36,468 nucleotides of DNA. Source: an uncultured Actinomycetes bacterium. GTDB taxonomy: Bacteria > Actinomycetota > Actinomycetes > S36-B12 > UBA5976. The DNA lies in assembly GCA_903892635.1 (NCBI GenBank), contig CAITJH010000064.1, positions 1 through 36,468 on the forward strand, written 5' to 3'. The translations under genes were made by a program, and so were the position numbers. Below, in pieces: positions 24,664 to 24,943 of this stretch (the stretch's first letter is position 1; each line of letters starts with the position of its first letter). The notes under the pieces were generated by a model that did not search any database, had not been told where the DNA came from, and was given only the letters and a program-made list of their open reading frames with translations.

Positions 24664-24691
24664 CACTTCTCACATGTAGCTGTCGTTAAAC

Positions 24692-24732
24692 ACTGCCCCC
24701 GACTTGTCGTGGGCTACAAATGAAAAAGCCAC
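24692..24732. repeat. Copy 1 of a ~40-bp direct repeat (ACTGCCCC(C)GACTTGTCGTGGGCTACAAA...AAAGCCAC)
   Basis: Near-identical to 24805-24845; start-to-start spacing 113 bp. Confidence 0.85.
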
Positions 24733-24770
24733 GAACCCGTAAGAAAACGTTCACAGTCGTAAAACAGGAA

Positions 24771-24795
24771 CGAGAAATTCACTTGGAATTTCTCG
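24771..24795. repeat. Perfect 10-bp inverted repeat, 5-nt loop
   Basis: CGAGAAATTC-ACTTG-GAATTTCTCG. Confidence 0.9.
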
Positions 24796-24804
24796 CAAAT
24801 AAAT

Positions 24805-24845
24805 ACTGCCCCGACTTGTCGTGGGCTACAAAACACAAAAGCCAC
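24805..24845. repeat. Copy 2 of the ~40-bp direct repeat; also inverted relative to the tRNA-Glu 3' end
   Basis: ACTGCCCCGACTTGTCGTGGGCTACAAAACACAAAAGCCAC; 24823-24835 is the perfect reverse complement of 24864-24876. Confidence 0.85.
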
Positions 24846-24858
24846 TCCGAAGAGTGGC
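24831..24858 (-). terminator. Intrinsic terminator downstream of tRNA-Glu
   Basis: Minus strand GCCACTC-TTCG-GAGTGGC-TTTTGTGTTT. Confidence 0.88.
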
Positions 24859-24870
24859 AGATATGTTTTG

Positions 24871-24943
24871 TAGCCCCGACGGGATTCGAACCCGCGCTAC
24901 CGCCTTGAGAGGGCGGCGTGCTAGGCCACTACACAACGGGGCC
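24871..24943 (-). tRNA. tRNA-Glu (anticodon CTC)
   Basis: Cloverleaf: GGCCCCG acceptor/CGGGGCT, D arm GTGT/GCAC, anticodon arm CCGCC-CTCTCAA-GGCGG, T arm GCGGG-TTCGAAT-CCCGT; no encoded CCA. Confidence 0.96.

Follow-up and report, generated by a model that had tools for sequence, protein, structure and literature searches.

The closest described counterparts of the elements considered here are the rtT/RttR repeats (Rfam RtT, RF00391), which stand as tandem units behind the tyrT-tyrV genes of Escherichia coli. The distal repeats of this locus (L301, with rttR and tpr annotated) comprise three units 178 nt apart, each of the order R′-core-R, R being a direct and R′ an inverted copy of the tRNA 3′ end, with 19 nt of tRNA-Tyr. 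In each rtT repeat of E. coli K-12 tyrTV, an imperfect inverted tRNA-Tyr end was seen beside the known direct copy. The rtT RNA was reportedly studied around 1990, and to our knowledge the repeats behind tyrT are without explanation so far.

In the window, that is, the whole stretch of 36,468 nt analyzed here, tRNA-Glu(CTC) adjoins tRNA-Gln(CTG) (ARAGORN). The pair is flanked by a glutamyl-tRNA-synthetase-type gene and a convergent IclR-type gene, the latter followed by aconitase-family (leuC/leuD-like) genes, and no integrase or recombinase domain was found among the nine neighboring proteins scanned. CCA is not encoded in tRNA-Glu(CTC), because the Rfam match ends at 24871. The sequence-only reading had described a long imperfect palindrome in the trailer of this tRNA, and re-reading of the window sequence confirmed both the palindrome and its coordinates: GTCG-t-GGGCTACAAAACA (24818-24835) on the plus strand pairs with TGTTTTGTAGCCC-CGAC (24864-24880) over 13+4 bp, and the stem GCCACTC/GAGTGGC sits between the two arms. 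A terminator scan identified this stem as an intrinsic terminator on the minus strand, a GC stem-loop (24841-24858) with a T-tract behind it. A repeat search of the window returned the palindrome as a pair of 25-nt arms with 84% complementarity. The run touching tRNA-Glu is 13 bp long, whereas the longest in 3000 dinucleotide-preserving shuffles of the trailer was 10 bp; about half of the observed run is the A/T-rich flank of the terminator, which is paired in relatives too, and the unusual part of the palindrome is the 11 nt of tRNA-Glu sequence.

Two features of the trailer had been missed in the sequence-only reading (Table 1). The arm recurs 112 nt away at 24697-24727, as a 31-nt direct repeat that is 90% identical to 24809-24839, and a further copy of GTCGGGGC stands directly behind the arm on the minus strand, so that local pairing of the arm is possible. 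The trailer thus reads on the minus strand as terminator, TGTTTTGTAGCCCACGAC (the inverted tRNA end), AAGTCGGGG, CAGTATTTATT, and a hairpin, with the inverted end again 112 nt on. A search of the genome for the arm, which the same reading had proposed, found the exact arm only twice. A mobile repeat with many genomic copies was rejected, the arm having two copies in the genome and none in 43 family genomes.

Table 1. Features of the tRNA-Glu(CTC) trailer in the window, from the tRNA gene outward
Feature	Positions	Strand	Basis and remarks
tRNA-Glu(CTC)	24870-24943 (ARAGORN); end 24871 (Rfam RF00005, 62 bits)	-	last 11 nt (GTCGGGGCTAC + next base) are one palindrome arm
Intrinsic terminator GCCACTC-TTCG-GAGTGGC, then TTTTGTGTTTT	24830-24858	-	terminator scan and folds; between tRNA and inverted copy
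R′ number 1, inverted tRNA-Glu 3′ end and first trailer bases	24818-24835	.	sequence, repeat search, shuffles
GTCGGGGC, local pairing with the R′ end possible (mini-hairpin CGAC-AA-GTCG)	24808-24815	-	sequence, folds
Core motif CAGTATTTATT	24798-24808	-	present exactly twice in the genome, here and in the trailer of tRNA-Gly(TCC)
Core hairpin GCGAGAAATTCCAAGTGAATTTCTCGT, also terminator-like	24770-24796	-	terminator scan
Possible direct-copy remnant: CGGGTTCG (T-arm, 24732-24739) and GTGGCTTTTTCATTTG (second half of terminator)	24717-24739	-	inferred from sequence comparison
R′ number 2, second inverted tRNA end	24706-24720	.	genome search for the arm, repeat search
CAGTGTTTA, degenerate second copy of the core motif	24687-24695	-	sequence

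Copies of a tRNA end in its own trailer are found behind other tRNA genes as well. When tRNA ends were compared with their own downstream DNA, with the upstream DNA as control, about 19 of the 176 tRNA genes in five same-genus genomes were found to have their own 3′ end repeated just downstream around a hairpin, as a direct copy (R) and usually also as an inverted one (R′). No comparable copy was found upstream of the 176 genes, where scores reached at most 9 (direct) and 10 (inverted). In the window's genome such copies lie behind the genes for Phe, Pro(GGG), Ser(GCT), Ser(GGA), Gly(TCC), and Ala(GGC), as well as Thr(CGT), where the contig end cuts the element off; in G008, G010, G018, and G019 they lie behind various tRNAs. 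As a rule, the tRNA is followed by a terminator, R′, the core hairpin, and R, in this order, and often by a copied terminator; the copies often lie well beyond the first terminator.

The tRNA-His gene of G010 (L217) has a full 30-nt direct copy of its 3′ end 117 nt downstream, together with a duplicated trailer hairpin segment. Several contigs of G018 and G019 (L233, L244, L262, and L287) stop only a few bases away from the 3′ end of a tRNA, as would be the case if assemblies were interrupted by repeats downstream of tRNA genes. Behind tRNA-Ser(GGA) in the window's genome (contig C7, L162:1331-2210), two identical units of ~125 nt, each of the order terminator-R′-core-R, lie on either side of ~520 nt containing an ORF of 120 aa that has no match in Pfam; the arrangement between the tRNA-end copies resembles a cassette. 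Integron-like gene cassettes were rejected as a general description, this being the one clear case; the other arrays have no gene between the tRNA-end copies, apart from one distant copy behind tRNA-Gly(CCC) in L311.

One version (type 1) has the order R′-GGGAGGAG-hairpin-CGACGGCTCC-R and is present in two actinobacterial classes. The type 1 pattern was found in 41 stretches of bacterial genomes and in 10 of the 43 family genomes; the pattern used for the bacterial genomes contained ATTT and favored one T-loop class, which the family pattern and the covariance model did not. Several of the same-genus loci coincide with public contigs of Nanopelagicales or freshwater actinobacteria (L148 and L161, for example, are identical in sequence around the element), and the window very probably derives from a bacterium of this kind. 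An intact tRNA gene lies on the same strand within 300 nt upstream of 59 of the 74 elements with context, typically at 55-76 nt, in some cases at 19-51 nt, and farther away for second array copies. The remaining 15 have the same flanks with no intact tRNA called, several of them at a contig end or behind an intervening array. The basal stem of the hairpin is conserved, and the upper stem covaries, with 62 pair changes on both sides as compared with 18 in shuffles (alignment and model). When 297 genomes of the phylum were searched with the model, 20 further type 1 elements were found in five other genomes from two classes; all 20 adjoin tRNA genes, including one for selenocysteine tRNA, or, in places without an intact tRNA call, have a copy of a tRNA end.

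The flanks of type 1 elements fit the local tRNA. In 58 of 59 elements, R′ is complementary to the T-loop of the local tRNA, and the match of R to its own tRNA extends over 14.2 nt on average, versus 3.9 nt with other tRNA species. In one metagenome-assembled genome, an identical hairpin stands behind Ser(GCT) and Ser(CGA) (L134 and L137) with R and R′ fitted to each, which suggests that the element may have spread within that genome. A phage origin of the type 1 core was considered and rejected: the 28 matches in viral contigs are without an R′ flank and many resemble coding sequence, and one recurring match adjoins a phage tRNA cluster, again without R′ or R. In the window, the type 1 model R1 (the GGGAGGAG-hairpin-CGACGGCTCC core) has no match up to E = 10.

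A different layout (type 2) comprises R′, a short hairpin that the end of R′ forms with the bases following it, CAGTATTTATT, a hairpin, and R. It was seen behind tRNA-Gly(TCC) in G000, G005, and G020, with a variant in G010. The window follows the tRNA-Gly(TCC) trailers of the former three genomes in its order of R′, mini-hairpin, CAGTATTTATT, and hairpin, the counterpart of its mini-hairpin in the tRNA-Gly elements being GAACC-TAC-GGTTC. Both exact copies of CAGTATTTATT in the window's genome are in tRNA trailers; in the genus, the motif is found within coding sequence as well, and a few palindromic arrays remote from tRNAs contain it, so that the link of the window to type 2 rests on a short motif and its order, and the assignment is probable, not certain. 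The inverted local tRNA end occurs twice in the window, in two tandem units with a period of 112 nt, and CAGTATTTATT and a hairpin are present. No R closes the unit, however: an intact direct copy behind the core is absent from the window, with CGGGTTCG as the only possible remnant, while almost all other members have an intact R. We therefore regard the window as at most a degenerate relative, and probably one, of the rtT-like class, not as rtT itself.

Behind a proC-like ORF of G019 (L354, G019:C2:24221-24395), with no tRNA near, tandem palindromic units of the form GCCGAGTTGTTTT-CCTAC-GAGCAGTATTTATTGCGCTC-AAAACACTCGGC carry the same 11-nt motif as the window trailer, and short arrays with this motif away from tRNAs also occur in G014 (L363) and G020 (L355/L356). 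The elements resemble REP-type and other palindromic repeats in being short non-coding hairpin repeats and in the presence of CAGTATTTATT in palindromic arrays elsewhere in the genus. Unlike REP-type repeats, they are low-copy and tied to tRNA ends, with flanks copied from the local tRNA.

The likeness to rtT extends to the tandem arrangement behind a tRNA gene, to a unit made of the inverted and direct tRNA 3′ ends around hairpins, and to the start of the direct copy at the border of T-loop and T-stem. The E. coli repeats differ in being confined to one locus, with 178-nt units, a 19-nt direct copy, and a long core, whereas the actinobacterial elements occur behind many tRNA genes, have units of ~70-145 nt and other cores, and have a terminator between the tRNA and R′. 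The actinobacterial elements gave no match to the Rfam RtT covariance model (RF00391), and the window has none up to E = 1.

At tRNA-Glu(CTC) itself, the region with its palindrome is absent from the 43 family genomes searched, and a pattern search of these genomes gave two other matches, neither resembling the window trailer. The sequence-only reading had held that the pairing would be irrelevant if relatives lacked the palindrome and the precursor ended before 24835; the former half of this is what was found. The same-genus genomes have ordinary terminator palindromes, many of them long, which begin with the last base of tRNA-Glu or close to it and of which none extends into the acceptor strand. 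In G011 and G013 (L014 and L016), tRNA-Glu(CTC) and tRNA-Gln(CTG) are convergent with one shared terminator, as compared with the tandem order in the window. In the sister genome G022, ~115 nt are inserted exactly at the 3′ end of tRNA-Glu relative to G005. The insert consists of a new terminator, an element homologous to one in G010, and a second end copy (GTTCGAATCC-GGGCTAC) displaced downstream, and it is followed by the trailer and flank that join tRNA-Glu directly in G005 (219 nt aligned). The two genomes thus provide a direct occupied/empty comparison for insertion at the tRNA-Glu gene. The core of the G022 insert differs from that of the window.

The palindrome could instead be an over-long bidirectional terminator between the convergent tRNA-Glu and IclR-type genes, with its right arm perfected by replication template switching that copied the conserved tRNA end and its second copy a later duplication. 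The convergence of the two genes, terminator-like patterns on both strands, and the palindromes of relatives that begin at or near the last tRNA base all fit this explanation, and the stem-loop with T-rich flanks on the tRNA side resembles known bidirectional intrinsic terminators between convergent genes. In the window, however, the outer arm extends into the tRNA, and an element core and a second arm copy come after it. The explanation also fails to account for CAGTATTTATT and a hairpin immediately after the arm, for the recurrence of this order at tRNA-Gly, and for the many other tRNA genes with copies of their own ends, often well past the terminator, and we consider it unlikely. We regard as very improbable that a conventional tyrosine-integrase element (phage or ICE), with tRNA-Glu as its attachment site, once left the palindrome as a scar. 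The 3′ ends of tRNA genes are common attachment sites, and the G022 insertion, with its second tRNA end copy displaced downstream, resembles the duplications left by tRNA-targeting integrative elements. Those duplications are direct, though, and the copies in the window inverted; the related inserts measure just ~100-150 nt, the nine neighboring proteins are without an integrase, and the viral-contig matches to the type 1 core are without the element layout. The combination of a direct tRNA-end repeat and an integrase gene, which marks an integrase attachment site, was thus not seen in the window copies and the nine proteins scanned. The suggestion in the sequence-only reading that the palindrome is a scar of duplication or integration comes closest to our own, given the G022 insert and the direct and inverted end copies at many tRNA genes, but not in the form of a classical integrase scar.

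That reading had also proposed that the trailer competes with the 5′ acceptor strand of the tRNA. Folding of the tRNA-Glu precursor gave z = -6.6, with a disrupted cloverleaf in the structure of minimum energy. Transcripts of growing length were folded with and without the cloverleaf enforced. Intermediates ending at 24855-24845 have a weak alternative fold (~2.6 kcal/mol), and in transcripts that end where termination is likely (24840-24830), the cloverleaf is either the best fold or no more than 0.5 kcal/mol above it. The invaded fold wins from 24825 on, and for transcripts to 24820 it is ahead by ~12 kcal/mol (-65.7 vs -53.4 kcal/mol with the cloverleaf enforced). The competition is therefore energetically possible only for transcripts that extend past ~24820; the U-tract of the terminator precedes the inverted arm and the native fold is favored in the likely termination zone, so that the pairing matters mainly in read-through RNA. 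According to these folds, the palindrome could unfold the tRNA only in transcripts passing the terminator, and folding and processing of the tRNA would normally precede invasion by R′; the effect on tRNA processing is thus probably minor. A regulatory switch may be imagined, in which R′ in read-through RNA would capture the acceptor strand and unfold the tRNA, GTCGGGGC would release it, and the supply of tRNA-Glu would follow the speed of termination or processing. The gain in energy once R′ is transcribed and the alternative pairing partner directly behind R′ are in line with such a switch. Its terminator and U-tract, however, come before R′, the arrangement is not conserved at tRNA-Glu(CTC) in the genus or the family, and the presence or absence of such elements varies at orthologous tRNA genes, all of which makes a switch improbable.

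The explanation we prefer, with a probability of roughly 60%, is that the palindrome is a worn two-unit insertion array of the rtT-like kind, in which R′ is part of a short tRNA-trailer element repeated with a 112-nt period. It draws on the anatomy of the trailer, the recurrence of own-end copies, the way R and R′ match the local tRNA, the covariation in one core type, and the single occupied/empty pair at tRNA-Glu. Such elements would arise by insertion or duplication at a tRNA 3′ end that leaves the tRNA intact and an end copy downstream; tandem duplication would then build arrays, and decay would leave remnants such as the window trailer, whose copy we take to be a decayed member of the tRNA-trailer elements. 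The palindrome would accordingly owe its existence to insertion at the DNA level and not to selection on the tRNA precursor. Against this stand the lack of an intact R and of a type 1 model match in the window and the different core of the G022 insert, and a gene that moves or builds the elements was not found.

The scattered family of short hairpin repeats behind actinobacterial tRNA genes is apparently undescribed; no description of such tRNA-trailer elements was found in the literature searched, older work lying outside that search. More tentatively, it is possible that tiny elements, widespread in Actinobacteria, insert at tRNA genes, build their inverted and direct flanks by copying the target tRNA, and carry only a conserved hairpin core. 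If true, this would imply an as yet unidentified target-copying recombination or reverse-transcription activity and would explain E. coli rtT too. The locus also cautions that a palindrome in a tRNA trailer need not regulate that tRNA. With a layout common to rtT and many actinobacterial tRNA loci, what was a curiosity becomes a comparative problem with many natural replicates.
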